A DNA stretch of 64,000 bases. Source: Yersinia massiliensis (lineage in GTDB: Bacteria; Pseudomonadota; Gammaproteobacteria; Enterobacterales; Enterobacteriaceae). Shown piece after piece: positions 9,724 to 64,000 of the stretch (the stretch's first letter is position 1; every line of letters begins with the position of its first letter). A program made the translations under genes and the position numbers. The notes beneath the pieces are model-generated. The model had not been told where the DNA came from, searched no databases, and saw only the letters and a list, made by a program, of their open reading frames with translations. Location of the stretch: NCBI RefSeq assembly GCF_003048255.1, contig NZ_CP028487.1:682001-746000 (forward strand), read 5' to 3'.

Positions 9724-10541
9724 TGAGTCGCCGTGAGATAGACCTGCTCCATCGTAACCCGTGGGAAGCTCTGCGGCAGTTTACCGCCGCACGTATCGCG
9801 CTCGGGCGCACAGGGGACAGTTTGCCCACCGCTGAATTGCTGAAATTTGGGTTGGCACATGCGCAAGCTCGTGATGCCGTCCACCAACCTTTTATGAGCG
9901 AAGAGCTTGCTGGCCCACTGGTTGCGTTGGGGTTGCACACCTTGACGGTTAACAGTGCGGCGCCGGATCGTTCAACTTATCTGCGCCGCCCAGATTTAGG
10001 ACGAAAATTATCCGCGCAAAGTCACGCGCAGTTGAGCGCATGGCCTGATAAACAAGCGGATCTGCTGTTGGTCATTGGCGACGGATTGTCATCCAAAGCC
10101 GTCCATCGCCAAGCCGTACCACTAATAGCCGAACTGTTGCCTTACTTGCGCACACTTGGTTTGTCATTGGCACCGGTTGTGTTGGCACATCAATCGCGAG
10201 TGGCGCTAGGGGATGATGCGGGTGAATGCCTGCAAGCTAAAGCTGTGGCGATATTGATTGGTGAAAGACCGGGGCTGTCTTCACCGGATAGCCTCGGGAT
10301 CTATATGACATGGGGGCCGAATACAACGCGCTTGGAATCTGAGCGCAATTGTATTTCTAATATTCGCCCAGAAGGGCTGGATTATCCGCAGGCAGCGTTT
10401 AAATTGGCATGGCTGCTTGAGCAGTCTTTCCAGCGGCGTTTATCAGGGGTACAGCTCAAAGATGAAAGCGATAACCCTGCATTGCATGGGTGCATTAGCC
10501 CAGCTTATGGAATTAAATCTGACAACAGTGTTTACAACTAG
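9723..10541 (+). CDS. eutC: ethanolamine ammonia-lyase small subunit
   Basis: This 272-residue beta subunit pairs with EutB and supplies much of the cobalamin-binding surface. Diagnostic segments are FTAARIALGRTGDSLPT near the N-terminus, FGLAHAQARDAVH, YLRRPDLGRKL, LLLVIGDGLSSKAVH, and CISNIRPEGLDYPQAA near the C-terminus. The length is at the short end for the family because the variable N-terminal extension is brief. The start codon overlaps the eutB stop by one base, which fixes the start. It is the last gene of the cluster and is followed by a terminator-like hairpin. Confidence 0.96.
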   Translation: MSRREIDLLHRNPWEALRQFTAARIALGRTGDSLPTAELLKFGLAHAQARDAVHQPFMSEELAGPLVALGLHTLTVNSAAPDRSTYLRRPDLGRKLSAQSHAQLSAWPDKQADLLLVIGDGLSSKAVHRQAVPLIAELLPYLRTLGLSLAPVVLAHQSRVALGDDAGECLQAKAVAILIGERPGLSSPDSLGIYMTWGPNTTRLESERNCISNIRPEGLDYPQAAFKLAWLLEQSFQRRLSGVQLKDESDNPALHGCISPAYGIKSDNSVYN

Positions 10542-10563
10542 CTTTATCTAAAAATCCAGTGAT

Positions 10564-10589
10564 AACAAGTGGCTGCGCTGCTTGTTTTT
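10564..10589 (+). terminator. probable intrinsic terminator of the eat-eutBC operon
   Basis: AACAAG at 10564-10569 pairs with CTTGTT at 10581-10586. The stem continues inward through two G-T wobbles and a GC pair, and a short T-run follows to 10589. It lies 23 bases after the eutC stop. Confidence 0.6.
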
Positions 10590-10784
10590 CGCCATTTACA
10601 CGCCAAATAGCGAGCTATCTAATTAGCCAATCTAATGATTGGTATCAATTTACCCTACACATCTGCCCCGAATAAAACTATTCTTATCAACCTACCATAA
10701 AGTTTTTAACCCTTAACGGGTATTTCCCTCATTCATTGGGTTTGGCTTTAGTCCCTAGGACTACAGGGTAAATAAGGAAGAAAA

Positions 10785-12287
10785 ATGGGATTCAGAAAAA
10801 AGAGCGTTCAACCGCTGCAAATCAACGATATTACGATTATTGATGACGTCAAATTGAAGAAAGCGATTACTGCTGCGGCGTTGGGTAACGCCATGGAGTG
10901 GTTCGATTTCGGGGTTTACGGTTTCGTTGCCTTTGCCCTTGGACAGGTATTTTTCCCCGGCGCAGATCCGGGTATCCAGATGATCGCCGCACTGGCGACG
11001 TTCTCCGTGCCTTTCTTGGTTCGTCCCCTTGGTGGCCTATTCTTTGGTGCATTGGGTGATAAGTATGGGCGACAAAAAGTCTTGTCTATCACCATCATTA
11101 TTATGTCAGTCAGTACCTTCTGTATCGGCTTGATTCCCTCCTATGCCTCGATCGGAATTTGGGCACCGATACTGCTGTTATTGGCAAAACTGGCGCAGGG
11201 TTTCTCTGTGGGGGGCGAGTATACGGGAGCCGCTATTTTTGTGGCTGAATACTCACCGGACAGAAAACGAGGATTCCTCGGCAGTTGGCTGGATTTCGGC
11301 TCCATTGCCGGTTTTGTGTTAGGGGCAGGGGTCGTGCTGCTGATTTCCAGCATTGTGGGCGAGACTGAGTTCCTAGAATGGGGCTGGCGGATACCTTTCT
11401 TCATTGCAGCACCATTAGGGCTGATTGGTATTTACCTGCGTAATGCCTTGGAAGAAACGCCAACTTTTCAGCAGCATGTGGATAAAATTGACAGCGATTC
11501 GCGTAACAGTATTGCGCAGCCGCCGAAAGTGTCTTTCCGTGAGATTCTCACCAAGCAATGGCGGAATCTGACGATTTGTGTCGGTATCGTGATAGCGACC
11601 AATGTTACTTATTACATGCTACTCACTTATATGCCGAGCTATCTCTCCCATAGCCTGCATTATTCTGAAGATCACGGCGTATTAATTATTATCGCTATCA
11701 TGCTCGGGATGTTATTTGTCCAACCCGTGATGGGGTTAATGAGCGACAGGTATGGCCGTAAACCCTTTATTATCGTGGGTAGCGTTGGGCTATTTATTCT
11801 CGCGATCCCCAGCTTTATCCTGATCAATAGCGGCATTATCGGTTTGATATTTTGTGGTCTGCTGATTTTAGCGATTTTACTTAATTGCTTCACCGGTGTG
11901 ATGGCTTCCATATTACCGGCCATGTTCCCAACCCATATTCGCTATAGCGCTTTGGCCATTGCGTTTAATATTTCAGTGCTGGTGGCAGGTTTGACGCCAA
12001 CCGCGGCGGCTTGGTTGGTTGAAACCACTCAGAATCTGTATATGCCCGCTTACTACCTGATGGTGGTGGCACTGATTGGATTAATGACTGGGGTATTTAT
12101 GAAGGAAACCGCCAATAAGCCGCTGAAAGGTGCCACTCCGGCGGCATCTGATAGAGCAGAAGCCAAAGAGATCTTGCAGGAACACCATGATCATATCGAG
12201 CAGAATATTGAAGATATTGATCAGCAAATCGCTGAGTTAGAGAAAAAACGTAAAAATCTGATTGCTCAACATCCGGATATTCATTAA
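10785..12287 (+). CDS. proP: glycine betaine/proline/ectoine proton symporter ProP
   Basis: This 500-residue major-facilitator protein matches Escherichia coli ProP along its whole length and has the same size. It takes up proline, betaine and related osmoprotectants with protons when osmolality rises. Visible landmarks are TIIDDVKLKKAITAAALGNA before TM1, GGLFFGALGDKYGRQ in loop 2-3, and GGEYTGAAIFVAEY. The C-terminal tail (about 450-500) contains heptads such as HHDHIEQNIEDIDQQIAELE, the antiparallel coiled coil that tunes osmotic activation in orthologues. The ribosome site AAGGA precedes ATG 10785. The upstream gap 10590-10784 presumably carries its osmotic and growth-phase promoters, which I could not place with confidence. 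Confidence 0.96.
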   Translation: MGFRKKSVQPLQINDITIIDDVKLKKAITAAALGNAMEWFDFGVYGFVAFALGQVFFPGADPGIQMIAALATFSVPFLVRPLGGLFFGALGDKYGRQKVLSITIIIMSVSTFCIGLIPSYASIGIWAPILLLLAKLAQGFSVGGEYTGAAIFVAEYSPDRKRGFLGSWLDFGSIAGFVLGAGVVLLISSIVGETEFLEWGWRIPFFIAAPLGLIGIYLRNALEETPTFQQHVDKIDSDSRNSIAQPPKVSFREILTKQWRNLTICVGIVIATNVTYYMLLTYMPSYLSHSLHYSEDHGVLIIIAIMLGMLFVQPVMGLMSDRYGRKPFIIVGSVGLFILAIPSFILINSGIIGLIFCGLLILAILLNCFTGVMASILPAMFPTHIRYSALAIAFNISVLVAGLTPTAAAWLVETTQNLYMPAYYLMVVALIGLMTGVFMKETANKPLKGATPAASDRAEAKEILQEHHDHIEQNIEDIDQQIAELEKKRKNLIAQHPDIH

Positions 12288-12380
12288 CCCAAACTGTGCG
12301 GAATATCACGGATGAAATTTGATTTAAATCAATAAAAACCATTTCTATACAATCACTTACCTTTCTATGCAAATCTAGCT

Positions 12381-12411
12381 TTGACCCTCCCCTAAGGGGA
12401 GGGCTTAGATT
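12381..12411 (+). promoter_or_regulatory. MerR/CueR-type promoter and operator upstream of cueP
   Basis: A -35 element TTGACC (12381-12386) and a -10 element TAGATT (12406-12411) are separated by 19 bases, longer than usual and typical of promoters twisted open by MerR-family activators. A perfect palindrome CCCTCCCCTAAGGGGAGGG fills 12385-12403 between them. This closely resembles CueR/GolS operators (CCTTCC spacer GGAAGG). cueP begins 54 bases downstream. Copper-responsive activation by CueR is the natural reading; it follows from sequence and family knowledge. Confidence 0.85.
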
Positions 12412-12464
12412 AAGCGTCATTATTCCCCTTCATCTCATTATTTTACTCTTATCGAAAGGACATC

Positions 12465-13043
12465 ATGACTGTGAAAAAGACCTTCGCCCAAGCCGCCCGA
12501 CTGGCTATTGTTGCTTTAACCGCTATCACCTTTAGCCATTTCGCTGCCGCGCAATCGACCTCCAGCGCAGAACGTGAGTTCCTCGCACAACAGGGTTTAG
12601 CAGGAAAAACCACTGAGCAGATGATTGATGCCATTGATCAGTCAAAGCAAGCGCGTCCTCTGCCTTATTCAGCTTCGGTAACAGGTACCGAACTTAAATT
12701 ATCTGATGGGCAACAGCAATTCACTTTCCCGCTGGGTGATAAGTTTTATCTCTCGTTTGCCCCTTTCGTGAATCAAACTCACCCCTGTTTTAATCACAGT
12801 TTGTCTGGCTGTCGCGGTGAAATGGCCGAGACCACCTTTGATGTGAAAATTACCGATAACACAGGGAAGGTGATCGTGCAGGATAAACTCACCAGTTATT
12901 CCAATGGTTTTATCGGTGTTTGGTTGCCACGTAATATCGAAGGCACCATTGAAGTTAGCTATCAAGGGCTAAAAGCGGTATCCCCTTTTGCCACTCAAGC
13001 CGAGAGCCAAACCTGTATGACCACGCTACATTTGCAAAAATAA
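12465..13043 (+). CDS. cueP: periplasmic copper-binding protein CueP
   Basis: This 192-residue protein has an N-terminal signal peptide (hydrophobic 12-27, cleavage near AAAQ-S). Three conserved cysteines follow: Cys108 and Cys116 in HPCFNHSLSGCRGEM, and Cys184 in SQTCMTTL. These are the copper ligands of the CueP family. In Salmonella CueP is a major periplasmic copper store, delivers copper to superoxide dismutase and confers copper resistance. The gene stands alone between the CueR-type promoter and a strong terminator, a single-gene copper-response unit. AAGGAC precedes the ATG. Family identity is strong; the in vivo role in this organism is inferred. Confidence 0.92.
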   Translation: MTVKKTFAQAARLAIVALTAITFSHFAAAQSTSSAEREFLAQQGLAGKTTEQMIDAIDQSKQARPLPYSASVTGTELKLSDGQQQFTFPLGDKFYLSFAPFVNQTHPCFNHSLSGCRGEMAETTFDVKITDNTGKVIVQDKLTSYSNGFIGVWLPRNIEGTIEVSYQGLKAVSPFATQAESQTCMTTLHLQK

Positions 13044-13071
13044 ATACGTAAGCGATTATCCCGCGAAATGA

Positions 13072-13116
13072 AAAATGCCCCAATAACCTAATTTGATGGT
13101 TATCGGGGCATTTTTC
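13072..13116 (+). terminator. intrinsic terminator of cueP
   Basis: AAATGCCCCAATAACC and GGTTATCGGGGCATTT form a long stem with one mismatch around a nine-base loop, followed by TTTTT. It lies about 30 bases after the cueP stop and can work in both directions because an A-run precedes it. Confidence 0.9.
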
Positions 13117-13777
13117 TCTGTTAAATATATTTAACTGTTTAGGAAATAGAAAGGATGTGAGTTATCAAAACTGCCTGCCATTTATCGATTCTATATTCAG
13201 AATATGTCGAAGAATGGCCGCTTTACCATTTTTTAATTTAGAGGGAAGCATTTACTTTGCTGACAGAGTAACTATGTGAATGTTTAATATGAATTTTCCT
13301 ATTTAATGTAGGAATTAATTATTTTAGTGTGCGATTTTTCCTGTTTACATAAATGTTAAAATTAGCCTTTTAAACTATAATAAATTAAATAACCAGTGAT
13401 TTAATTCGCTGCATGGTTTTTATCTGATTGAGATGCGGGTTATTGATTTAATTATTAGAATTTAATTTTCATTAATTTCCCTTTATCAAAATAATTATTT
13501 TTAATCAGAATATTGTTCTTAAATAAAAACAGCCGTATAAATAAACTCATGTAAGTTGGCTAGACTCATCGGCTTAAGTTATTCGTTTATCAATAGAAAT
13601 TGATAAACCAATTGTTATTGGTTTGTGACTTTTCCGTGTGTTTAGTGCCCCTCCTATTTAAAAACTAAATCCTGACTTGATTGTATTGCTCGGTACGACA
13701 TCGCTTTTATTGCCAAGTAAAAGGATTGGGTTTTGCTGACCTCTTTTTTAGCAAATTATTATTTGTTAAGGAACTAT
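13117..13777. other. AT-rich 5' region of the autotransporter gene
   Basis: This 661-base stretch is strongly AT-rich with many A and T runs and contains no credible gene. It must hold the autotransporter promoter. Such composition upstream of a surface adhesin is often bound by H-NS; that is inference. A TTG codon at 13733 is in frame with the large gene, but the ATG at 13778, preceded by TAAGGA, is the better start. Confidence 0.6.
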
Positions 13778-16700
13778 ATGAATAAATTCTTTAAAGTGAT
13801 TTGGAATTCAGTCCTAAACATATGGATTGTTGTGGGTGAACTGGCAAAGCGCACCGCTAAAGCCAAAAGTGTCGGTCACTCATTAAACGGTAATACACAG
13901 TCAAATACCCTTGCTAAAAATGGTATAAGTCACCTCTTTAGAAAAAGTCTTTTAGCTTTATCAATCGGCAGCTTTAGTTTATTCGGCGTTAATCCTGCAC
14001 AGGCTGTCGATATCACCGTCACAACCCAAGCGGCCCTGTTAACCGCGTTATCAAACGGCACTTACGATAAAATTATTCTGGGTGCGGACATTGCACTGAC
14101 TCAAGTACTCACCGTCAATATGGCGAGTCATAATGTCGTGATTGACGGCAATGGCTTATATGGTTTGACTGTTGCCAATACGGTCGTCAATGGCTTAGCG
14201 GTTTCGTCGGGTACTGGGACATTAACGCTTCAGAATATGTCCAAAATCACCACGGCCAACTATTACAGTATGGTTTACCTAACTGGCGTGAATACGGCGG
14301 TGAATGTTATCTATGACAATATCGGCACTCTGGGTACGTCCCAGCTTGCTTTTATGGATACCAATGGCGCATCCACCAACAGTATCTTAACGTTCGGTAA
14401 TATTCTGTCAGATGTGGTTGTTAACGATAGAGACCAGGAAATTGGCGAAGTTAACAAAGTGAGGTATACCGGCCGATTTCATGTCACGCATTTAGGGGGC
14501 GGCATCTCTTTCCAAAATGCGGGTGCGGCAGTCAATACCGCCACCATGGATTTTCTCAGTGGCGCTGATGTCATCATCAATAGAACGGGGTCGGCAGCAA
14601 GTATCACGAATACGGGGGCCTATGCTTTTGCCTATAATTTTGCCGATAACGCCTCATTTGAACTGATTGCCAATCAGAACGTTCTCAGTGGCGCGACGAA
14701 TAACCGAGGCATCACCATTGGGAGTTATAATTCAGGCACCGGTTTTGGTGATGGCGCAAAAATAATTTTGCGGGCGCGGGCGACCGGTGGCGGTGTTATC
14801 GCTGGGAATGCCATCGATAACGCGACCACGAATACAGCGGGCATCAATAATGGCGCCACTGGGACGGCGGATGTTATTTACAATCTGGCGACCGGTTCTA
14901 TTTTGAATACCACGGCGGCTGGGATTTTAGCCACCAAAACCGGTGCGGCTAATACCAGCGGGATCTATATCAGTTCTGGCGCGGCCATGAATGTCGCCAC
15001 AGCCGGTATTTCAGCCTCCCATGCGGGCAGCGGGAATGTCGTGTTGGAGAATAAAGCCACAGGGACCATTACTGCCGCCACGGGAATATCGGCAACCAAT
15101 ACCGGAACCGCAACCATCAATGTCGCCAACAAAGGCACAATTAATAGCACTACTGCCGGGATTGCCCTCTCCTCAAGTGCCACTTCTGGCCCATCACAAA
15201 CCATTAGCGTGGATAATACCGGCGGTACCATCAATGCCAGTGCGGGAACGGGCGTTAACGTTCTGTCGAATACGTTATTGAATTTGGTCGGTGGGACCAT
15301 TACGACGACGGGCGTTGCTACTGGGCTGACATTTGCGGGCACAAGTGGTAATCACGCCTTAACGGATTTGATTTTAAATCTCAACGGTACCGGGGCGGCT
15401 TTCGCCAAAGCGGCAGGTATCAATCTGGCCCTGAGACATGTCACCTTCAACGTGACAAATGGTACGGGGTTAACCAGTCTGGCCGGTTTGACCTTTGCAG
15501 AGGGGGTTAATGGCCGTAATACGATCAATGTCACGGGGACGGGGATCGGGATTACTGCGGCGAATACGGATGTCAGTGCGTTAAATCCGGATGCGTTAGA
15601 TATCAATGTGTCTGGCGCGGGAACGGGGATCAATGCCACCGGTGGCGGGGTTGACCTGTCCGATTCGAATCTGCATATCAATGTCACCAACAGCGGCGGT
15701 ACAGGGTTACAGGTGACCGATGGTGCCGTAACCACCACCACCATCGGTGCCGATGCTCAGATCAATGCCGCCGGGGCGACGGCAATTAATTTCACTGGGA
15801 CAACCGCCAAGACACTGACGAACAACGGTACCATTAATGGTGCGGTAAACTTTGCCGGAACAGCGGCGAACACCATTAATAATAATGCGATATTAAATGG
15901 CACATTAACCACCGGTGCCGGTAACGATACCTTGGTTCTTGGTAGTACCTCGCAAAGCAATGGCGCGATTAATCTGGGGGCCGGTAATAATAACGTCACC
16001 ATACAGAATGGCGCTCAAGTGTCATCCATTACCACCGGTGTGGGTGATGATACTTTTACCATCAATAATATGACCGTGGGCAGTACCTATTTAGGTTCTC
16101 TGAATGCGGGTACTGGCACCAATACACTCAATTTCAATGCGTCAACTGACACCTTGGCGGCAGACACTTCCCTGCAAGGTTTTACCAATATTAATCTGGC
16201 GAACAGCCTGATTACCCTTGTCTCTGACACTAACATCGGCAGCGGCGTGATCACTGTTGACGGCGCCAGCGATCTGCTGTTTGGCAGTGCATTCAATGGC
16301 ACGCTGAATGCGTCATTAGGCCATCTCGCGGGAGGTGATGGTTCAGCCATCATCAACAGCGGTGCGAATGTTGCCTTGAGCCAGTCGAGTAATTTTGCGG
16401 GTGATTGGCAGGTCAAACAGAGCGGCACCCTGACGGCAAGCAATAGCAATCAGTTAGGCACGGCGGCGATTGCTCTCGATGGCACATTCAATCTCAATGG
16501 AGTGGCGGCGACTAATAATGCATTGACCGGCACCGGCGCGTTGAATATCGCGAATACGGTCAATAGCGCCTTTGATTTTGGCAGTAATACCGGTACAGCA
16601 TTTGCCGGTACGGTGAATATGCAAAACGCCACTTTTAACCTCAGTGGTACCAATAGCGGGGCATTAAATCATGCGACCTTGATTGCCTCCACAGACACCT

Positions 16701-19700
16701 CGGTTGCGGTTGGTGTGGGCAATCAAACGATCGGTAACGTCACCCTTAATGGCGGAACGACTGAATTTGCGGCTGGGAGTTCAATCACGACCGACACACT
16801 GGCGGTGACCAATGACAGTGTGGTTAAAGTCGCTCCTGGGGTGAGTACTGGCGGGAATTTACTCGATCAAGATACGGGCAGTTCGTCCCAACTCATTAAC
16901 AGCACCAATGCCCTGTCGGCAACTGATTTAGCACGACTCACATTGCAGGATCTTGCGGGCAATAGCTTGGGGAATGGGGCCGAAGAAAGTGTTGTTCAAG
17001 GCGGGAATACGGTAGCACAGGCGCTGTATGATTATGCGCTGACCAGCGAAGGCAGTGGCTTGAGTGTGGCATCAACCCTGACAGAACTGGAATTACTGCT
17101 TGGACAAAGTTTAACCCTCACATCTGCGGGCGCTGTCAATGCCGATCACAACTTACTGGCAAAATTGACCGGTGCGGGCAGCCTGATTATTGGTGCGGAT
17201 AACAGCGAATTGACGCTAACCAATGCCACTAACGATTACACCGGCACGACCACCGTAAATGGCGGCATTTTGAATCTGGGGAGTGATAATGCACTGGGGG
17301 CGACTTCAGCCTTAAATACGGCGTTAAACACCCAAACTAATCTCAACGGCCACACTCAGACAGTAGGCGCACTGACCAACGCCGGTGCCGTGACGTTAGG
17401 CTCAGGCGGAGTACTGAACAGCACGGGTGCGCTGACCAACAGTAACACGCTAAATCTCGCCGGCGGCACGCTGAACTTGGCTGCGGGCGGCACTTCTAGC
17501 GCCACCGGCGGCTTAACCGGTGCCGGTACGCTGAACATCAACGGCGGTGATTTGGCGGTCAGTGGCGCGAACAGTGGCTTAAGCGGCCAAACGCTGATTG
17601 CGTCGGGTGCCTCTGCCACCTTGAACGGTGCAGGGACATTGGGCAGCAGTGCCATTAATGTGCTGGGTGACCTGAATCTAAATGGCGCTAATGCCGCCTT
17701 GGCGAATGTGCTGAGTGGCACTGGCGATATCAATACTAATGCAGCAGTCACGCTGACCGGAACCAACAGCTTTAGTGGCGCTCATCATATCGGGTCGGCT
17801 GGGGCATTAACGGTCACGCAAGCCGGTAATCTTGGCGCTTCAACTGCTACCGTGAATCTGGACACCGCTACTTCGCATCTGGTGCTCAATGGCCTGAGCG
17901 GTGCCATCGCCAATGCCCTGAGCGGCGTGGCGAACTCCACCGTTGATATTACCAATGGTGCGAATGTGTCGTTAACCGGCACCAATAGCGGCTTCGCTGG
18001 TCAGTATGCCTTGGCGGGGAACAGCAAGCTGACGGTGGCCTCGACCAATAATCTGGGGGCTTCAGCCAATATCGCACTGGCAGGCGCGCAGGATATGTTG
18101 GCGCTGAGCGGTTTTAGCGGCACCTTCGCCAATACGGTTACTGGTCTGGGTACCTTGCAGGTCACTGACAGCAGCAATGCTACTTTGACCAGCAGCAACG
18201 GACTGGGAAGTGATGTGGCGGTGGATATCGCGAACGCGACTTTGAATCTGGCTGATATCGCGCTGTTTGATCACGCGCTGACCGGCAACGGCACACTCAA
18301 TGTGGCGAAGAACGATGCCAGCACGGCATTTAACTTCGGCACTGCGGTGGGCGGCGCGTTCAGCGGTATCGTTAACCTGACCAACTCTATTTTTGCTTTA
18401 AGCGCTGACAACACCGCCGCACTGGCGAATGCCACGCTGAAGCTCTCCGCGAACAACGTCACCACCGTCGGCACCACTGATCGCACGGTGCACGGGTTAG
18501 ATCTGAGTGGCGGCACCCTGATCTTTGACGGTGCTGCGCCACAATCCGAGGCTAGCGGCGTGGTGACGGTGACAGACTTGGCGCTGAACAGCGGCACGGT
18601 CAGTGTCACGGGTACCGACAGTTGGACGAACCAAAACCCGGTTGTCGCGCCGAATGTGTCGCTGCTCGATCAGGATCGGGGCGATATCATGCTGGCGTTG
18701 ATCAACGCCACTAGCGTGACCGGTGATGTGAGCGGGCTGGATCTGATGATCAACGGCACCTCGGTCACCTCTGGTGCGCAAGGCGTGATCTCTTCCATCT
18801 TGCAGGGCGGCACGGCGGTGGCGAATGCGACCCATAATTATGGCCTGACCAGCAGTAACGGCAGCGGCGGCACGGGCCTGTATGTCAATTACAGCCTGAG
18901 CGCACTGGCGCTGTTAACTGACGATGCCGATGCTTTGTTACTGGCAACAGACAGCAGCGCGTCCTCGAATAAGACCTTGAATGCACTGGTTTCCGGTGTG
19001 GGCGGTTTGCAAATTGATGCCACTAATGGGGCGTTAACGCTGGCAAACGGCAGTAACAGCTATCAGGGCAAAACCACGGTCAATGCCGGTGAGCTGATTC
19101 TGGGGGCAAATGGGGCCTTCGGCGCGACGTCATTACTGGATATCGCCAGCGGTGCCAGCGCCAATATCAACGGCCACACTCAGACAGTAGGCGCACTGAC
19201 CAACGCCGGTACAGTGACGTTAGGCACCGGCGGGGTACTGAACAGCACGGGTGCGCTGACCAACAGTAACACGCTAAATCTCGCCGGCGGCACGCTGAAC
19301 TTGGCTGCGGGCGGCACTTCTAGCGCCACCGGCGGCTTAACTGGTGCCGGTACGCTGAACATCAATGGCGGTGATTTGGCGGTCAGTGGCGCGAACAGCG
19401 GCTTAAGCGGCCAAACGCTGATTGCAGCGGTTGCCTCTGCCACCTTGAACGGTGCAGGGACATTGGGCAGCAGTGCCATTAATGTGCTGGGTGATCTGAA
19501 TCTGAACGGCGCGAATGCCGCCTTGGCGAATGTGCTGAGCGGCACTGGCGATATCAATACTAATGCAGCAGTCACGCTGACCGGAACCAACAGCTTTAGT
19601 GGCGCTCATCATATCGGGTCGGCTGGGGCATTAACGGTCACGCAAGCCAGTAATCTCGGCGCTTCAACCGCGACGGTGAATCTGGACACCGCTACTTCGC

Positions 19701-53536: not shown

Positions 53537-55243
53537 GTGTCTCGTTTCAATTATTCTATATTAATAGCTGGCATATTATTGCCTTTGGTGGCTATTCCTT
53601 CCGCCGGCTATTGCGCAGAATTACCTTCTGTTCAGCAATTACCCTCTGTTCAGCAAAGCATTCACCAACAAGAACGGCAACGTGCTTTGGAAGAACGCCT
53701 TTCGCCTTCAGCGCCAGATGTGCGTTTATCCGAACCCACTGCGTCTTTGGGCCGACTGGTTTTTCCCGTTGAGAAACCTTGCTTTGCGATTGACCATGTA
53801 AAACTCACGGGTACCCAGCCATTACCGCGCTGGTTACCGTTGCAACGGCTGGCCAATCAGGCGCAAGGCCACTGTTTGGGCGCGAAAGGCATTAACCTGC
53901 TGATGAGCGAGATGCAGAACCGCCTGATCGACCACGGTTATGTCACCACCCGCGTACTGGCTCCGCAGCAAGATTTGAACCGTGGCACGCTGACGCTACA
54001 CGTGGTGCCCGGCAAAATACGCCATGTGGCCCTGACACCCGAGAGTGATCGCCATGTCACGCTGTTCACCGCCTTCCCTGCCCGCGCCGGTCACCTGCTG
54101 GATCTGCGCGATATCGAGCAGGGGCTGGAGAATCTCCAACGTATCCCCACAGTGCAAGCCAGCATGGAGTTGATCCCCGGCGATGCCCCCGGTGAGACGG
54201 ATATCGCTCTGAGCTGGAAGCAGAGCAAAATGTGGCGGCTGGCTGCCTCACTGGATGACTCGGGCACGCGCAGCACCGGTCGTTATCAAGGCGGTGCAAC
54301 GCTGTTTCTCGATAACCCGTTGTCCCTGAGTGACCAGTTTTATGTCTCTGCGGGCGGCTCCATTAAAAATCGGGGCGAAAAAGGCACCAACAACCTGACC
54401 GGCCATTACTCGCTGCCGTTCGGTTACTGGACCGCAGGTATCACCGCCAGCAGCTATGACTATCACCAAACGGTGGCAGGTCTCAATGGCGACTACCACT
54501 ACCGTGGTGAAAGCGACAATGTGACGCTGCAACTTAGCCGCTTACTGCACCGCAACGCCAGCCAGAAAACCACCTTCACCTACGATGTGCTGACCCGCTC
54601 ATCGAAAAACTACATCAATGATACCGAAGTGGAAGTCCAGCGCCGCCGCACCTCTGCTTGGCGCGTCGGGCTACAACATCGCCACTTTATCGCGCAGTCC
54701 ACGCTGGACGCGGGGATCAGCTATCAGCGCGGTACCCGCTGGTTTGGGGCCGTACCGGCACAAGAAGAGTATTTCGGCGAAGCCACCGCCTTGAGCAAAA
54801 TTCTGCGACTGAATGCGCAGTTGGACGTGCCTTTTGTCCTCGCGACACAACAATTCCATTACAACCTGCAATACCAGCGCCAGAGCACCAACACGCCACT
54901 GACCCCGCAGGATCAGTTCGCTATTGGTGGCCGTTGGACCGTGCGCGGCTTTGATGGCGAACGCACACTCAACGCCGATCGCGGCTGGACAGTGCGCAAC
55001 GATCTGGGTTGGTACACGCCCCTGCCCGGACATGAGCTATATGTCGGGGTGGATTACGGCGAGGTGAGTGGGCGCAGCGATCCTTATCTGGTGGGCCGCC
55101 ATCTGGCGGGCAGTGTCGTGGGGGTTCGTGGCAAGGTCCTGAATACCCACTATGACCTGTTTGCCGGCAAACCGCTCTCCAAGCCCGAGGGGTTTAAAAC
55201 TGACTCGGTAACGATGGGCTTTAGCCTGAACTGGCAATACTGA
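53537..55243 (+). CDS. cdiB: CdiB, outer-membrane two-partner secretion transporter
   Basis: This 568-residue TpsB protein exports CdiA across the outer membrane. The start is GTG at 53537 with AAGGA upstream. After a signal peptide ([18 protein letters not shown]) comes a short repeat [12 protein letters not shown], then a ShlB-type POTRA region with a Cys pair ([21 protein letters not shown]), [20 protein letters not shown], and the 16-stranded barrel with [12 protein letters not shown] (the VRGF family motif) and a final aromatic residue, NWQY. The gene is followed 36 bases later by cdiA, giving the Escherichia-type B-A order. Confidence 0.93.
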
Positions 55244-55279: not shown

Positions 55280-58200
55280 ATGAATAAAAACCTGTACCGA
55301 ATCGTCTTCAACAAGGCGCGAGGCCTGTTGATGGTGGTCGCGGATATCGCGGCTTCCGGTCGGGCCACCTCATCGCCATCCTCCGGTGTGGGTCATGCGC
55401 AACGCCGCTGCATCAGTGCCTTATCGTCGTTGAATTTTAGTCTGCTACTGGCGTTAGGCTGCGTCTCACTCTCGGCTCAGGCGGATATTGTGGCCGATGC
55501 CGGTGCGCCCGCCGGTCAGCAGCCGACTATTATCAGCAGTGCCAACGGCACGCCGCAGGTCAATATTCAAACGCCCAGCAGTGGCGGGGTTTCTCGCAAC
55601 GTCTACAGCCAGTTTGATGTCGATAATCGCGGCGTGATCCTCAATAACGGCCACGGGGTCAATCAGACTCAGCTCGGCGGTTTTGTTGACGCTAACCCGT
55701 GGCTAGCACGGGGTGAGGCCAATATTATCCTCAATGAGGTGAACAGCCGCGACCCCAGCAAGCTTAATGGCTATATCGAAGTGGCGGGCCGCAAGGCGCA
55801 GGTGGTGATCGCCAACCCCGCTGGCATCACCTGTGAAGGCTGCGGCTTTATCAACGCGAACCGCGCCACGCTGACCACCGGTCAGGTGCAACTGAATAAC
55901 GGCCAACTGACCGGTTACGATGTTGAGCGCGGCGAGATTATCGTCCAAGGCGCCGGCATGGACAGCAGCCGTCAGGACCATACCGACCTGATCGCCCGCT
56001 CCGTCAAAGTGAATGCCAGCCTGTGGGCCAATGACCTGAATGTCACCACCGGCCGCAATCAGGTGGATGCTGCGCACCAGAGCATTAACGCCAAAGCCGC
56101 CGATGGCAGCCCGCGCCCCACCGTGGCCGTGGATGTCGCCAATTTAGGTGGCATGTATGCCGGTAAAATTCGCCTGATCGGCACGGAAAGCGGTGTTGGG
56201 GTACGCAATGCCGGTGAGATAGGTGCCTCTGCGGGTGATATCACCATCACGGCAGATGGCATGCTGGTCAACAGCGGCCAGATAAGCAGCGCCCAACAAC
56301 TGACGGTGAAGACCACTGGCGAGATAGAAAACGCGGGCGTGCTGTATGCGCAGGGCAATACCCAACTCACTACGGCAGGCAAACTCAGTAACACCGGCAC
56401 CCTTGCCGCCGCCGGTGACACTTCGCTGCGCGCCTCTGAAGTCAACAGCAGCCGCAACTCGGTCTTAGGGGCGGGCGTTAAGTCCGACAGCAGCCGCATT
56501 ACCAGCGGCACACTGCGTGTTGAGGCCAGCGGAAAGTTACTCGCGCAAGGGAAGAATATCAGCGGGACGGCGCAGCACTTCACAGGGCAAAGTCTCGATC
56601 TCAGCGGCAGCCAAACGCAAAGCAGTGATTTGGCGCTGACCGCCCAAGGTGGGGATATCGATCTCACGGGAGCAGACTTGTCGGCCAACCAACTGTCCGC
56701 CTCGACCGCCTCGATGTTACGTACTGACAGCGCCCGTTTGATTGCCGAGCAAATGACGCTCGACGCTCATTCACTCTCCAATGTGGGCGGCGTGATAGCG
56801 CAAACGGGAGCAACAGATTTTAACCTGAATCTGGCCGGTGCGCTGGATAACCGTGGTGGCAAGATTCTCTCGAGTCGCCAACTCTCGCTTCAAGCCGAAA
56901 CCTTGACCAGCAACGATAACAGCCTGCTAGGGGCGGGCGTACAAAGCGATGGCAAATTGGCTCAGCACGGCGATTTACAGGTGGCAACTCGCCAAGCATT
57001 GATGGCCCAAGGGCAGAATGTCGCTGCAGGGGATATGACGCTATCCGGCTCGAGTGTTGACCTGACCGGTAGCCAGACTCAAGCCAGTAATATCACGATT
57101 AATGCCCGCGAAGGGGATATCTCAACTCAAGACGCGACCCTGATAACCCCCGGTACACTCGCGGTCACTGCGACAGCCGATCCGGAACAAACGCTGAATA
57201 GCCGTGGCGGCAAATTGCAGGCGGAGAATATCCAACTCAACCTTGGAAAATGGGTTAACAGCAACGGAGAGGTTGCCGCGGCAACGGATTTACAGGTCAA
57301 TCTGCAAAGTGATTTCACTCACCAGACCGGCGCGCGTATCACGGCAGGGCGTGACTTGCGCTTTAGCACCAGTGGCGCATTGATTAATCAGCATAAACTG
57401 GAAGCTGGGCGGGATATGCAGTTGGCGGCGCTCAGTGTCAATAATACCAATGCCGATAACAGCAGTGCTCTACTGGCGGGGCAGAACTTGTCATTGAACA
57501 CGGATAGCTTGCTGAACAATGGCGCTATCTATGCCGCTGGCGTCGGGCAATTAACCGTGAAGGGGAGTGCCAATAACAGCGGGTTAATTGCCGCGCAAGG
57601 GGATCTCCAACTGCACGCAAATGACTTGCTCAGTAGCAGTACCTCTTTGATCGGGGCCGGATTAAAAGCGGACGGCAGTCGTGCCAACAGCGGTAATTTA
57701 ACGCTCAATACTGATCAAGCCTTGATCGCTCAAGGGCAAAATATTGCGGTGGGTGACTTGGTACTCTCTGGTCGCGGGATTGATGTCTCGGGCAGCAAGA
57801 CTCAGGCCAATAGTATCACCCTAGCTGCGGGGGCGGGGGATCTGAACTTAACGGGCGCGGTGGTTAAAGCAGCAACGCAGTTAACTGCCAGTACCACGTC
57901 CCTTCTGAGTACCGATAAAGGCAACGTGATCGCCGAGCAAATCACCCTCACCGCGCAAGCACTCTCTAATTTTGGTGGGGTTATCGCCCAAACGGGGATA
58001 ACGGATTTCAACCTGAATCTGGCGAGTTATCTTGATAACCGCAGTGGCGCTATCTTCGCCAAAGGCAATGTTGACGTTCAAGCACAGCAGCTCAAGAGCG
58101 ACAGCGGTAGCCTATTGGGTGCTGGCGTGCAGAGCGATGGTCGCCTGACGGATACCGGCGATCTGGTGGTGATGACTCGTCAGGATTTAACCGCGCAAGG

Positions 58201-61200
58201 GCAATCTCTGGCAGCAGGGGCGATGACATTAACGGGAAGTCGGGTTGATCTGACGGATAGCCATACGCAAGCCCAAGGGATCAATATCACCGCTAACAGT
58301 GGCGATATCAGCACTCAGCGCGCCAATATTGTCTCTTTAGGTTCTCTCACCCTCAATGCCGGTGCCAATGCCACGCAAACCCTTAATAACCAAGGCGGCG
58401 CACTGGCGGCGAATAACATTGCTTTAAATCTGGGATGGTTTGATAGCAGCGCAGGCAAAATGACGGCCAATCAGGATCTGACGATCGGCTTACAGGGGGA
58501 TTTTAGCAATCTGGCCGGATCGACGCTTCAGGCAGGGCGTGATTTAACCTTTAAAACCACTGGTGCCTTCACCAATGATGGGCAAATATTGGCGGGTCGA
58601 AAACTGAGTACCGACTCAAATAGCTTACTGAACACCGGCAAGATAAATGCGGCGCAGGCAGAACTCACCACGGCAGGCGCTCTGATTAACCGAGGGGAAA
58701 TATTCAGCAGTGGTCAGCTTGATACAGATTCCAGCACGCTACTCAACAGCGGCACCCTCATTAGCGCAGCCGCCACGCTCAAAGCACGCGATCGCATCAC
58801 TAACACCGGCCCCAATGCCCTTATCGGTGCTACCGATGTCAACGGCACTTTAGCGCTATTGGCACCAGTGATTGAAAATAGCGATACCGTCACCAGCACT
58901 GATACCGCACCGACCACCACCCTTTTAGGCATGGGCAAAATTATTCTGGCTGGTGGGCAAGATAATAGCGGTAATTTCCAAACGGCAGCTCAGGTGCTCA
59001 ATATCTCCGGCTTAATCGAATCAGGTAAAGATCTACTGGTTTATGCCAATACCCTGACCAATCGCCGCCATATTTTAACCGCCAACACTGAATTTGTGAC
59101 CGGCGAAACAGTGAGTGGGACCGCCTACTGGACGGCAGAAAACCCGAATATTCCAGGCGGGCGCTACGCTGAACCCCCTCATGGCGGGTCAATGAACAGT
59201 GACTACATTGGCACTAATTATACGTCGACCTCTGCTTATAACAGCATCGATAAAATCAGCCCCGAGGCACAGCTGTTAGCGGGGGGAAACCTCACTCCGC
59301 ACGTTAACACGCTGGAGAACTTCTGGAGTAAAGTCAGTGCACAGGGCGACATTGACCTTTCGGGGGTCACCCTGCAACAAGATGGTTGGGCAGGGCAGCA
59401 GCGGCTGATCGAACGGACCACCTCTACCGGTGAATGGCGTTATCGTACCTACAAAGGCAATTTGTGGGGCACCGGTTGGGGGCCAGAAGTCAAGGAACAC
59501 GCCACCAACCAATACGCCTCGAGTCTCACGGCAAAAACGATCAGTGGCAGCGGCACAACGATCAGCAATGGCGCAAACCCCGGCACTGTCGCCCCACCGA
59601 CTGAGCGCGACAGTAGTGGCAAAAATATCACGCTCGAGTTTAACGGCATCTCTCTAGCGCTACCTAGTGGCGGGCTGTATCAGCTCAGTGCGGGCAACAA
59701 CACGCCAACCGCAGGGGACAAGCTATCGCTCGACAGTATCAATCACTCACCGTCCCTCGATCCTAATGTGGATCGCGCGAGCCTAACCCCACCGGATCGA
59801 ACCGTCAGTACCGGCTATTTGATCGAAACGAACCCTGCGTTTGCCAATTTGAATAACTGGAAAGGGTCGGACTATTTTCTCCAGCAAGTGAATAGCGATC
59901 CTGCGTTAATCCACAAACGTTTAGGGGATAACGCTTATGAACAGCGGCTGGTGCGCGACCAAGTGCTGGCATTAACCGGCCAAGCGGTCACCCATGATTA
60001 CAGCAGCGCACAGGCGCAATTCGAGCAGTTATTTGCGGCGGGCCTTGAGTACAGTAAAGCGTTCAATATTGCCCTTGGTACTCACCTCAGTGCTGAACAA
60101 ATGGCGGCATTAACCACCAATATGGTGCTGATGGAAACCCGTGAAGTCGCGGGGGAAACGGTATTGGTGCCGGTGGTTTATCTGGCCGGCATCAAAGCAG
60201 GCGAGTTGCAGGCCAACGGGGCATTGATTGCCGCAGAGAATATCACCTTAACCGATGTGCAGGGGTTCAATAACTCAGGGGCGATGATCGCCACCCATAA
60301 TCTGAACCTCAGCATGGCGCAAGACATTACACTGACGAGCAATGGCGGCCTGCTTCAGGCGGGCAATAATATGCTGCTCAGTACGTTGAACAGCGATATC
60401 GACCTGACCGGCACGCGGCTTAATGCGACCAACCTGCAACTCGATAGCGGACGTGATCTGATCCTGCGAACTGGTACAGAGCAACTGAGTAGCAATAATG
60501 GATCTGTGTGGCGGGATCAAACCCTTCTCGGGCCACTGGCTAGCCTCAACATCAGCAATAATGCAGTGATCAACACCGAACGTGACTTTATCATGCAAGG
60601 TGCGGGCCTGACCGTGGGCAAGGATCTTCAGATCAATACTGGCGGCGACTGGCTGCTCAATACGGTCCAAACCCGTGATCAGATCAGTTCGAATTTCGGT
60701 CACGGCACTGCGACCAGCGAGCATATTCGCCATCTGGGGAGTGAGGTCAATGTCGGTGGTGCGCTAACGGCTAGCGTCGACAATCTCACCGCCGTGGGGG
60801 CCAATATTCAGGCTGGCACGATGGATGTACAGGCGCAAAATATCAACCTGAGTGCCGCCACGGACAGCTTGCAAGTGACCGGTGAATCCTCGAGCAAGCG
60901 CCATAAAGGTGCCATTGATCTTTATGATGAAACGCTGATCGGCAGCCAGTTAAATGCCAAAGGGGATATCAATCTTAAAACGGCGCAAGACATCAACCTC
61001 AGCGCCAGTGGCATACAAACCGATGGCGCGCTAAAACTGGCCGCAGGCGGCGATGTCACTCTCACCACGCAGGCAGAGCAGCATGATGAGCAGCGCATTC
61101 ATGAGGGTAAAAAACGCGGGCTGGCCTCCACTACCACGACCCGCACCGAAGACAGTATTCACCAAACCTGGGCGGTAGGCTCCCTGCTGTCAGCGGGATC

Positions 61201-64000
61201 TATCGATGCCAGCGCTAAAAACATCGCGGTCACCGGTAGCCAAGTGGTGGCCGATAACGATATCCATCTGCGGGCGCAAGACAATATCAACGTGAGCACT
61301 GCGCAGCAGAGCCAGAGCGAATCTCACCTGTTTGAGCAGAAAAAATCCGGCCTGATGAGCACGGGCGGCATTGGTGTCACATTGGGCAGTAACAGCACCA
61401 AAATGACCGATACCGGCCAGTCGATTTCCAACGTGGGCAGCACTGTCGGCAGCGTACAGGGCAACGTCAACATGACTGCCGATAAAGACCTAACGGTAAA
61501 AGGTTCTGACGTGTTAGCCGGTAAAGACATCAGCCTGACCGGTCAAAACGTGGCGATTGTGGCGGCAGAGAATCAAAGCACTCAAACCCATATCGTGGAG
61601 CAAAAAAGTAGCGGCCTGACGCTGGCCCTGTCTGGCGCAGTCGGCAGCGCACTAAATACCGCAGTGACCGCCGCCAAAGATGCCAGTGAAGAAAGCAATG
61701 GCCGACTGGCCGCGCTGAAAGGCGTCAAAGCCGCGCTCGGTGGCGTGCAAGCGGTGCAGGCCGGCCAACTGGTGCAGGCTCAGGGGGGCGATAGCGCCAG
61801 CATGTTCGGCGTCAGCATCTCATTAGGCGCACAAAAATCGTCCTCGCAACAGCAGCAGGAACAGACCAGCGTGACGGGTTCGACCCTGACGGCGGGCAAT
61901 AATCTGACCATCAACGCCACCGGTGATGGTAACCCCGCGAACAGTGGCGATATCGTGGTGCAGGGTAGCCAGCTCAAAGCCGGCGGCGATACGACGTTGG
62001 ATGCGGCCCGTGATGTGCTGTTACTCGGCGCGGCCAGTACGCAAAAAACCGACGGCAGTAACCGCAGCAGCGGCGGCAGTGTGGGTGTCAGTGTGGGTAT
62101 CGGTGGCTCTGGTAGTGGCCTGAGTATTTTTGCCAACGCGAACAAAGGGCAAGGCAAAGAGCACGGTGACGGCACCTTCTGGACGGAAGCACAGATTGAC
62201 ACAGGCGGCACACTGTCGCTCAGCAGCGGGCGAGATACTGCACTGATAGGCGCGCAAGCTAACGGCGAAACCGTCAAAATGGATGTCGGCCGTGACCTGT
62301 TGCTGCAAAGCCAGCAGGACAGCGATAACTACGATTCGAAGCAGACCAGCGTCAGCGGCGGTATCAGTGTCGCGGTCATTGGTACCGGTGGCTCTGCCAA
62401 TCTGAGCATGAGTCGCGACAAGCTGCACAGCAATTATGACTCAGTGCAGGAACAGAGCGGTATCTTCGCAGGCAAAGGCGGTTTTGATATCACCGTCGGC
62501 GAACACACCCAGCTTGATGGTGCTGTGATTGCCAGTACTGCAGACAAGAGTAAAAACAGTCTGGATACCGGCACACTGGGCTTCAGTAACATCGAGAACA
62601 AAGCCGATTTCAAGGCCGAGCATCAGGGCGGCAGCCTGAGCACCGGTGGTCCGGTGGGGTCTGACCTGCTGAGTAATCTGGGTAGCGTGGTGTTGTCGGG
62701 TCTGGGCAATAGCGGTCATGCCGAAGGCACTACGCAGGCAGCGGTTAGCGATGGCACGATTACCATCCGTGACACTGATAAACAGCAGCAGAATGTCGAT
62801 GACCTGAGCCGCGATACCGACAACGCCAACGGCAGTATCGGCCCTATCTTTGATAAAGAGAAAGAACAAAACCGCCTGAAAGAAGCGCAACTCATCGGCG
62901 AGATTGGCGGTCAGGCCATGGACATTGCGCGAACGCAGGGAGATATCATTGGTTTGGAGACCGCGCTGAAGGCCAATCCGGCGTTGAAAGGCGATGCGGA
63001 AGCCCTGCGTGAGACAAAAGAATACAAAGCCGAAATGAAGAAATACGGCACTGGCAGTGCGTTGCAACAAGGTCTTCAGGCTGCAACGGCGGCGATACAG
63101 GGCTTGGCTGGTGGCGATATGGCGAAAGCGCTGGCAGGTGCTTCTGCCCCGTATCTGGCTGAAGTGATCCACAATATGACCCTTGACCCGACCCGAAAAG
63201 GGGGCGTCAACACGGAAGCCAACCTGATGGCTCATGCGGTTCTCGGTGCGGTGGTTGCTCAGGTCAATGGCAACAGCGCACTAGCAGGGGCTTCCGGCGC
63301 GGTGATGGGGGAATATATCGCCCAGCAAATGTACCCAGGGGTCGCGCGTGAAGATCTGAACGAAGAGCAACGACAGACCCTCAGTGCATTAGGTACACTG
63401 GCGGCCGGATTAGCCGGTGGCTTGGCGGGTGGTAGCACCGCAGATACCGTAGCCGGTGCACAGGCCGGGAAAAATGCGGTTGAGAATAACTCTCTGAGTG
63501 ATATTGCTGAGAATCAGGCGTCAGGAATGTCACAAGCGGAGCGGTATCAGAAAGCGCAGAATGCACTGGTGAAAGCCACGGAGGAGTTTAAAGAGAATAA
63601 CTGTGCCGGGCTCAGCGCTGAAGCCTGCGGTGCAAAAATGGATGCGCGTCGCGATGAACTGTTGGCAGGAGCCGCAGAGTTTGGCAGCGACTTCATTCCT
63701 GTCTACGGTGATATCAAGAGTTTTGCTGAGGCTGACAGTACGCTGGGCTATCTGGCTGCGGTGGTTGGAATATTACCGGGGCTAGGTGATGTAGTCGGTA
63801 AAGCTATTAAAGGCGCAGAAAAAGCTCTCAAGGCGGGAGATCTTGAAACTGCGTCTAAGCTGATTAATAAGGCCAGTGATGAAATTGCTGCTGTCTCAGG
63901 AAGTAAAGGAAATTGGAGCAAAGAACTAAACAATCCTCAGCCGAATAAGACCTATCAACTGGATGGTAATAAAACATTTAAGACTGACTCTTTGGGAAGG
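55280..64000 (+). CDS. cdiA: CdiA, contact-dependent inhibition effector, 3' end beyond the window
   Basis: The open frame from ATG 55280 reaches the edge without a stop (2907 codons). Residues 1-28 (MNKNLYRIVFNKARG...) form an extended signal region, ended by SLSAQA. The TPS domain follows, with IANPAGITCEGCGFINANRA near 179 carrying the CxxC of this class. FHA-1 repeats (about 400-1270) give way to a Tyr/Pro-rich region (YFLQQVNSDPALIHKRLGDN near 1535), where CdiA changes export phase, then FHA-2 repeats (about 1740-2400). The VENN motif is at 2734-2737, followed by a hydrophobic entry region (DFIPVYGDIKSFAEA; ILPGLGDVVG) and, at the edge, NKTYQLDGNKTFKTDSLGR, which resembles the beginning of DNA/RNA non-specific endonuclease toxins. 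The immunity gene cdiI should lie just outside. CdiA identity is firm; the toxin type is tentative. Confidence 0.93.
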   Translation, partial: MNKNLYRIVFNKARGLLMVVADIAASGRATSSPSSGVGHAQRRCISALSSLNFSLLLALGCVSLSAQADIVADAGAPAGQQPTIISSANGTPQVNIQTPSSGGVSRNVYSQFDVDNRGVILNNGHGVNQTQLGGFVDANPWLARGEANIILNEVNSRDPSKLNGYIEVAGRKAQVVIANPAGITCEGCGFINANRATLTTGQVQLNNGQLTGYDVERGEIIVQGAGMDSSRQDHTDLIARSVKVNASLWANDLNVTTGRNQVDAAHQSINAKAADGSPRPTVAVDVANLGGMYAGKIRLIGTESGVGVRNAGEIGASAGDITITADGMLVNSGQISSAQQLTVKTTGEIENAGVLYAQGNTQLTTAGKLSNTGTLAAAGDTSLRASEVNSSRNSVLGAGVKSDSSRITSGTLRVEASGKLLAQGKNISGTAQHFTGQSLDLSGSQTQSSDLALTAQGGDIDLTGADLSANQLSASTASMLRTDSARLIAEQMTLDAHSLSNVGGVIAQTGATDFNLNLAGALDNRGGKILSSRQLSLQAETLTSNDNSLLGAGVQSDGKLAQHGDLQVATRQALMAQGQNVAAGDMTLSGSSVDLTGSQTQASNITINAREGDISTQDATLITPGTLAVTATADPEQTLNSRGGKLQAENIQLNLGKWVNSNGEVAAATDLQVNLQSDFTHQTGARITAGRDLRFSTSGALINQHKLEAGRDMQLAALSVNNTNADNSSALLAGQNLSLNTDSLLNNGAIYAAGVGQLTVKGSANNSGLIAAQGDLQLHANDLLSSSTSLIGAGLKADGSRANSGNLTLNTDQALIAQGQNIAVGDLVLSGRGIDVSGSKTQANSITLAAGAGDLNLTGAVVKAATQLTASTTSLLSTDKGNVIAEQITLTAQALSNFGGVIAQTGITDFNLNLASYLDNRSGAIFAKGNVDVQAQQLKSDSGSLLGAGVQSDGRLTDTGDLVVMTRQDLTAQGQSLAAGAMTLTGSRVDLTDSHTQAQGINITANSGDISTQRANIVSLGSLTLNAGANATQTLNNQGGALAANNIALNLGWFDSSAGKMTANQDLTIGLQGDFSNLAGSTLQAGRDLTFKTTGAFTNDGQILAGRKLSTDSNSLLNTGKINAAQAELTTAGALINRGEIFSSGQLDTDSSTLLNSGTLISAAATLKARDRITNTGPNALIGATDVNGTLALLAPVIENSDTVTSTDTAPTTTLLGMGKIILAGGQDNSGNFQTAAQVLNISGLIESGKDLLVYANTLTNRRHILTANTEFVTGETVSGTAYWTAENPNIPGGRYAEPPHGGSMNSDYIGTNYTSTSAYNSIDKISPEAQLLAGGNLTPHVNTLENFWSKVSAQGDIDLSGVTLQQDGWAGQQRLIERTTSTGEWRYRTYKGNLWGTGWGPEVKEHATNQYASSLTAKTISGSGTTISNGANPGTVAPPTERDSSGKNITLEFNGISLALPSGGLYQLSAGNNTPTAGDKLSLDSINHSPSLDPNVDRASLTPPDRTVSTGYLIETNPAFANLNNWKGSDYFLQQVNSDPALIHKRLGDNAYEQRLVRDQVLALTGQAVTHDYSSAQAQFEQLFAAGLEYSKAFNIALGTHLSAEQMAALTTNMVLMETREVAGETVLVPVVYLAGIKAGELQANGALIAAENITLTDVQGFNNSGAMIATHNLNLSMAQDITLTSNGGLLQAGNNMLLSTLNSDIDLTGTRLNATNLQLDSGRDLILRTGTEQLSSNNGSVWRDQTLLGPLASLNISNNAVINTERDFIMQGAGLTVGKDLQINTGGDWLLNTVQTRDQISSNFGHGTATSEHIRHLGSEVNVGGALTASVDNLTAVGANIQAGTMDVQAQNINLSAATDSLQVTGESSSKRHKGAIDLYDETLIGSQLNAKGDINLKTAQDINLSASGIQTDGALKLAAGGDVTLTTQAEQHDEQRIHEGKKRGLASTTTTRTEDSIHQTWAVGSLLSAGSIDASAKNIAVTGSQVVADNDIHLRAQDNINVSTAQQSQSESHLFEQKKSGLMSTGGIGVTLGSNSTKMTDTGQSISNVGSTVGSVQGNVNMTADKDLTVKGSDVLAGKDISLTGQNVAIVAAENQSTQTHIVEQKSSGLTLALSGAVGSALNTAVTAAKDASEESNGRLAALKGVKAALGGVQAVQAGQLVQAQGGDSASMFGVSISLGAQKSSSQQQQEQTSVTGSTLTAGNNLTINATGDGNPANSGDIVVQGSQLKAGGDTTLDAARDVLLLGAASTQKTDGSNRSSGGSVGVSVGIGGSGSGLSIFANANKGQGKEHGDGTFWTEAQIDTGGTLSLSSGRDTALIGAQANGETVKMDVGRDLLLQSQQDSDNYDSKQTSVSGGISVAVIGTGGSANLSMSRDKLHSNYDSVQEQSGIFAGKGGFDITVGEHTQLDGAVIASTADKSKNSLDTGTLGFSNIENKADFKAEHQGGSLSTGGPVGSDLLSNLGSVVLSGLGNSGHAEGTTQAAVSDGTITIRDTDKQQQNVDDLSRDTDNANGSIGPIFDKEKEQNRLKEAQLIGEIGGQAMDIARTQGDIIGLETALKANPALKGDAEALRETKEYKAEMKKYGTGSALQQGLQAATAAIQGLAGGDMAKALAGASAPYLAEVIHNMTLDPTRKGGVNTEANLMAHAVLGAVVAQVNGNSALAGASGAVMGEYIAQQMYPGVAREDLNEEQRQTLSALGTLAAGLAGGLAGGSTADTVAGAQAGKNAVENNSLSDIAENQASGMSQAERYQKAQNALVKATEEFKENNCAGLSAEACGAKMDARRDELLAGAAEFGSDFIPVYGDIKSFAEADSTLGYLAAVVGILPGLGDVVGKAIKGAEKALKAGDLETASKLINKASDEIAAVSGSKGNWSKELNNPQPNKTYQLDGNKTFKTDSLGR

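Follow-up and report, generated by a model that had tools for sequence, protein, structure and literature searches.

A cdiBAI locus of Yersinia massiliensis with an EsaD/NucA-type toxin end and a predicted compact relative of the EsaG/YezG antidotes

Arrays of orphan cdiA-CT/cdiI modules, those of Yersinia included, were described in 2011 for contact-dependent growth inhibition (CDI) systems (PMC3150448), and a pairing of Tox-NucA toxins with Imm36 immunity proteins (DUF600, BH3703-like fold) was predicted for type V secretion systems and for gamma-proteobacteria by Zhang et al. 2012 (PMC3482391). A solved toxin-antidote pair is EsaD/EsaG of the type VII secretion system of Staphylococcus aureus (PMC9616950; structures 8gun, 8guo and 8gup), and a mechanism in which the antidote deforms the toxin has been published for Gram-positive pairs in the same work. 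There, the deformation is proposed to begin when the finger loop of EsaD collides with the beta4'-alphaD' loop of EsaG; the EsaG loop, together with helices alphaD' and alphaE', is the proposed trigger and the partner of alphaB of the toxin. Here we describe a locus at the end of a 64,000-nucleotide stretch of Yersinia massiliensis (the window; contig NZ_CP028487.1, here C1, positions 682001-746000; the genome has three contigs and 5.16 Mb). The locus is very probably a cdiBAI system with an EsaD/NucA-type toxin end and its own CdiI antidote.

The cdiA gene runs over the window edge, and its remainder was read from a downstream piece of the same genome (L008, C1:744000-762000; L008 position is window position minus 61999). 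From 55280 the frame is free of stops up to the edge (55280..64000, + strand, residues 1-2907), and it continues for 363 coding bases to C1 746363, where a stop codon closes a protein of 3,028 residues. Pfam recognises ESPR, TPS, Fil_haemagg, Fil_haemagg_2 and PT-VENN in CdiA, the haemagglutinin repeats lying among these. Directly upstream lies the gene of CdiB, the two-partner outer-membrane transporter (53537..55243, + strand; 568 aa from the listed GTG; ShlB 1e-106, POTRA_2 1.5e-23, POTRA_3 1.1e-16), and directly behind cdiA, overlapping its stop, lies the 110-residue immunity gene cdiI (C1 746363-746695). The first-pass annotation of the window had placed the rest of the toxin and cdiI beyond the edge, and expected a small immunity gene immediately downstream and orphan modules after it. 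All of these are present; the immunity gene is found again at other loci downstream of this toxin domain, and three orphan modules follow it.

The VENN motif, taken in that annotation as the start of the variable C-terminal part of CdiA (CT), lies in frame at residues 2734-2737 (63479..63490, + strand), within a PT-VENN pre-toxin domain (residues 2691-2741, 63350..63502, + strand; Pfam 7.9e-21). When CdiA was compared with the three downstream copies, DNA similarity ended at query positions 290, 296 and 290 (window 63489, 63495 and 63489), that is, at the VENN codons or at most six bases from them in all three cases. Because the domain scores so well and similarity to every copy stops there, the boundary is more than chance. 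The sequence after VENN varies among the local copies, and in the genus other ends stand behind the same entry domain.

The CT ends in a nuclease domain of the family Endonuclea_NS_2 (PF13930; CT residues 155-279; 133.6 bits against a cut-off of 27, 6.6e-39), the start of which is encoded at 63941..64000 (+ strand) and the remainder at C1 746001-746315. The nearest solved sequence to this domain is EsaD/EssD (2.2e-17). His209 and Asn232, the counterparts of EsaD His528 and Asn551, are kept in 15/15 toxins and represent the catalytic His and the metal-binding Asn of a His-Me finger fold, a fold also found in NucA, EndoG and the Serratia endonuclease. The 187-residue stretch inside the window gave no nuclease match at E 0.001 by itself, so the toxin class could be tested only with the downstream sequence. 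It had been proposed from the short motif TDSLGR (63983-64000, CT residues 169-174), which lies near the beginning of the PF13930 match; the call was right, the observation at the window edge is confirmed, and what lies past the edge is settled in support of the earlier interpretation.

Ahead of the nuclease, CT residues 1-139 form a cytoplasm-entry domain (63479..63895, + strand). CT matches occur in 10 of 25 genomes of the genus, and the CT is modular: among 20 related loci in named genomes, L025 and L026 carry residues 1-139 without the nuclease, and five (L012, L014, L015, L016 and L021) match from residue 140 onward only. The same entry domain precedes other toxin ends at seven places (L032-L036, L040 and L041) in five genus genomes, three of these ends being LHH nucleases according to Pfam. 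The segment ENNC...EAC and the hydrophobic stretch noted in the first reading are where they were claimed to be. ENNC starts at CT residue 39 with EAC after it; their cysteines, Cys42 and Cys50, are kept in 12/12 entry domains compared, the window's included, and mean Kyte-Doolittle hydropathy reaches 1.65 at CT residues 88-106. Among the entry domains of CDI toxins, a cysteine pair that forms a disulfide has been reported for EC3006 and predicted for Yersinia intermedia, and efficient entry of EC3006 requires precise cleavage after VENN (PMC9424206).

On its predicted fold, we would file CdiI as a compact YezG-like relative, not as a family member by score. The prediction, run without templates, gives an EsaG/BH3703 fold matching EsaG over residues 4-118 of 161, and the gene stands next to an NS_2 nuclease. 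The YezG-like family (PF04634, DUF600, Imm36) is matched by 8/15 antidotes of alignment A1 at E 0.001, and four of the ten proteins listed singly (of 15 in A1) pass the cut-off of 21.7 bits. In the 110-residue model the last helix spans 59-78 and the chain ends after the last strand. Compared with PDB sequences, the sequence profile of CdiI returned a single match at E 0.5, taken as chance, and NCBIfam and PADLOC scans gave nothing meaningful. The Pfam YezG-like profile matched in two of 398 genomes of the phylum and missed the source genome itself; being blind to this CdiI, it was therefore not used for counts.

The 15 loci compared remained from the 20 related ones after removal of L025, L026 and L028 (other toxins), L023 (broken inside the toxin) and L027 (at a contig end). 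L024, split upstream in the toxin with a readable end, was kept among the 15 and left out of alignment A3, and L014, whose antidote is identical to that of L012, was left out of A1. A pair scan based on a fixed motif, in which 23 numbered loci were skipped (duplicates, small or broken stretches) and which gave no row for L072, L070, L056, L057 and L075, found 25 distinct toxin-antidote pairs with antidotes of 109-115 residues. Those with a named source are all from Gammaproteobacteria, and the others belong to the order or the genus of the window. From plasmid records, 9 of 29 were taken in, with environmental, food and plant species chosen. In two of the plasmid loci (Pantoea and Cronobacter, L101 and L102) the compact antidote is annotated as hypothetical protein, and four annotated Bacillus antidotes as YezG family. 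Longer neighbours of 125-163 residues, with DUF600 status shown for part of them, stand in eight pairs, five of them in Bacillus and Niallia; four Bacillus YezG-family proteins have 158-162 residues.

Three Bacillus toxins (L103-L105) have a short finger loop, GNLNKGEW, and Met at the place of Glu566, yet are paired with full-length YezG of 158-159 residues. A short finger loop is hence not a marker of the compact class, and the idea that the EsaG helices, the finger loop and Glu566 were lost as one co-evolved unit was rejected, since these toxins show the same losses beside a full-length YezG. The compact antidote stands as a fact; its coupling to the toxin losses does not.

In an order-wide survey of 295 genomes, 18 NS_2 places exceeded the cut-off and seven of them had an adjacent match to the antidote alignment, namely all six above 95 bits and one in G223. 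Away from any NS_2 place lay 6/13 antidote rows (G092, G262, G223:C37, one partial in G193 and two in G072). NS_2 pieces at L071 (G223) and L072 (G147) adjoin neighbours of 145-146 residues that resemble long antidotes, so that both antidote size classes seem to occur in the window's order. In G002, probably Yersinia aleksiciae, nearly the same NS_2 toxin is carried both by a full CdiA and by an orphan module (L030 and L039). The two diverge at the end of the toxin and over the first half of the antidote, while the second antidote halves are almost identical, a pattern that resembles a recombination mosaic.

By analogy with published CDI systems, CdiB would export CdiA to the cell surface, and on contact the part after VENN may be released into the neighbouring cell. 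The helical entry domain would then carry the toxin across the inner membrane, and the C-terminal nuclease would cut DNA by means of His209 and a metal held by Asn232. The overlapping CdiI, with its predicted compact EsaG/YezG fold and its genetic linkage to the toxin, would protect the producer, presumably by binding; like EsaG on EsaD, it might wedge into the nuclease beta-sheet and disorder the active site, a mode of action to which we give slightly better than even chances.

Several observations weigh against this picture. The toxin lacks five finger-loop residues of EsaD in the alignment, no equivalent of the partner residue Glu566 is present (0/15 toxins), and the structure model of the CT is weak (mean pLDDT 57.4). 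CdiI itself has no Pfam match up to E 10 and scores below the YezG-like cut-off, so that its link to the family comes from the matches of its relatives and from the predicted fold instead of its own score; solved DUF600 structures (2006, 2009) may sit in the training set of AlphaFold. CdiI also ends before the beta4'-alphaD' loop and the C-terminal helices alphaD' and alphaE' of EsaG, and thus does not have the full length of that antidote. Finally, 11/18 NS_2 places of the order, weaker or of other kinds, lack a neighbouring match to the antidote alignment, which missed the 145-residue neighbour at one of them (G147), and the NS_2 place of the genus genome G016 has no such match either.

A compact CdiI without the helices thought to trigger deformation could also inhibit the nuclease while leaving its shape intact, for instance by masking the active site or an exosite; we consider this a serious possibility, if one somewhat short of an even chance. 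In its favour, the YezG-like profile matches stop at position 110-115 of 146 in the eight relatives that matched, out of 10 proteins compared, and the fold match stops at EsaG 118. Those EsaD residues that face the missing helices are not conserved, Glu566 being absent and the position of Asn562 occupied by Q, K, A or T, and inhibition through an exosite has been discussed for other CDI pairs (PMC7033585). However, most residues that face the EsaG core are conserved: Tyr159 (EsaD Tyr476), Phe/Tyr167 (Tyr484) and Arg281 (Arg606) in 15/15 and Glu258 (Glu583) in 12/15. Of the other contacts, the Val495 equivalent is kept in 13/15, and His482, Glu601, Asn607 and Arg610 (Arg in 1/15) are lost along with Glu566; the kept residues may be kept for folding instead. 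Moreover, the losses in L103-L105, which occur with full-length YezG, indicate that such losses alone mark no different mode of inhibition. With most of the core-facing contacts kept, wedging by the core fold is judged likely, if unproven. That the CDI branch carries a reduced EsaG of 109-115 residues, which still inserts into the nuclease sheet and breaks the active site although the antidote has no trigger loop or helices and the toxin lacks the five matching finger-loop residues, has in our estimate not quite an even chance; if true, the core fold alone would be enough for inhibition by toxin deformation, and the mechanism would extend to Gram-negative contact weapons.

As to the target, the family is described as DNA/RNA non-specific and the fold relatives NucA, EndoG and Serratia endonuclease fit with an attack mainly on RNA, or on both nucleic acids; however, EsaD and YeeF, the nearest toxins to have been characterised, appear as DNases in PMC9990079 and PMC7033585, and we consider an RNA target improbable. 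The haemagglutinin repeats and the broken state of some neighbouring modules might suggest a filamentous-haemagglutinin adhesin whose toxin end is an inactive remnant, but with the frame intact to its end, the active-site residues present and the overlapping antidote gene kept, this is hardly credible. A CDI system with a predicted nuclease toxin end is retained as the best explanation of the locus.

Downstream of cdiI, the first orphan module (C1 746858-748219) carries Ntox21 and a CdiI_N-type immunity gene. The second has a BURPS668_1122-type deaminase (PF14424, 6.6e-33; L008:5531-5980), an in-frame stop between its entry and toxin parts and a weak Imm2-like neighbour below cut-off; in Yersinia intermedia ATCC 29909, the CT of the main CdiA is assigned to PF14424 (PMC9424206). 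The third has PT-VENN and a 127-residue neighbour, and the family scan recognised no toxin domain in it. These modules may serve as a reserve of alternative toxin/immunity ends kept on site. Between the CDI array and a set of type VI secretion genes (VipA, VipB, VasE, DotU, OmpA-type, Hcp and the start of a Clp-type ATPase; L008:10725-17999, C1 754724-761998) lies a 2OG-Fe dioxygenase gene (L008:8083-8958, minus strand; PF10014, 3.6e-43). Elsewhere in the genome, a second cdiBAI-like locus, named by eye, lies at about 1822-14564 of L073 (G000:C1:2684000-2703000), with a CdiB-like protein of 566 aa, a CdiA-like protein of 2,521 aa with VENN at 2322 and a 117-aa neighbour, as well as an orphan module that has VENN and a neighbour of 136 aa. 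A haemagglutinin-like gene of 3,322 residues, also identified by eye (L074, G000:C1:82000-101000, 8487-18455), has a short stretch like the CdiA region before VENN.

The locus is of textbook type, and the compact antidote is its one modestly interesting corner. Through this locus, a contact toxin of Gram-negative bacteria is tied to a Gram-positive pair of solved structure, and the inhibition mechanism is therefore directly testable with a smaller antidote. The NS_2 toxins taken from the tables of PMC9990079 (RhsA, EsaD/EssD, YeeF) include no CdiA, no further search having been made, so that a CDI member may still await a biochemical test, and among the matches listed from open-licence literature we found no paper on an EsaG-type CdiI structure. 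With the CDI systems of PMC3150448, that of Yersinia pseudotuberculosis included, the locus shares the cdiBAI order, the VENN boundary and orphan modules that are CdiA-like upstream of VENN and unrelated after it, each of those described there having an immunity gene. The difference is not one of kind: here NS_2 is on the main CdiA, and Ntox21 and a split deaminase are in the orphans. The Tox-NucA/Imm36 pairing (PMC3482391) has the same toxin clade and the same immunity fold, and the description drawn on here gives no length classes; in the present set the CDI immunity proteins fall into a compact class, 109-115 residues long. YeeF/YezG of Bacillus subtilis (PMC7033585) likewise joins a DNase of the DNA/RNA non-specific endonuclease type to a DUF600 antidote (family according to PMC9616950), but its delivery is LXG-type and the four Bacillus YezG-family proteins above have 158-162 residues. 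EsaD/EsaG shares the nuclease fold, the His528 and Asn551 equivalents and the antidote fold over EsaG 4-118; it differs in type VII delivery, as opposed to CdiA, and in possessing the C-terminal antidote helices and the five finger-loop residues, so that in the CDI pair both the toxin's finger loop and the antidote's beta4'-alphaD' loop are reduced.
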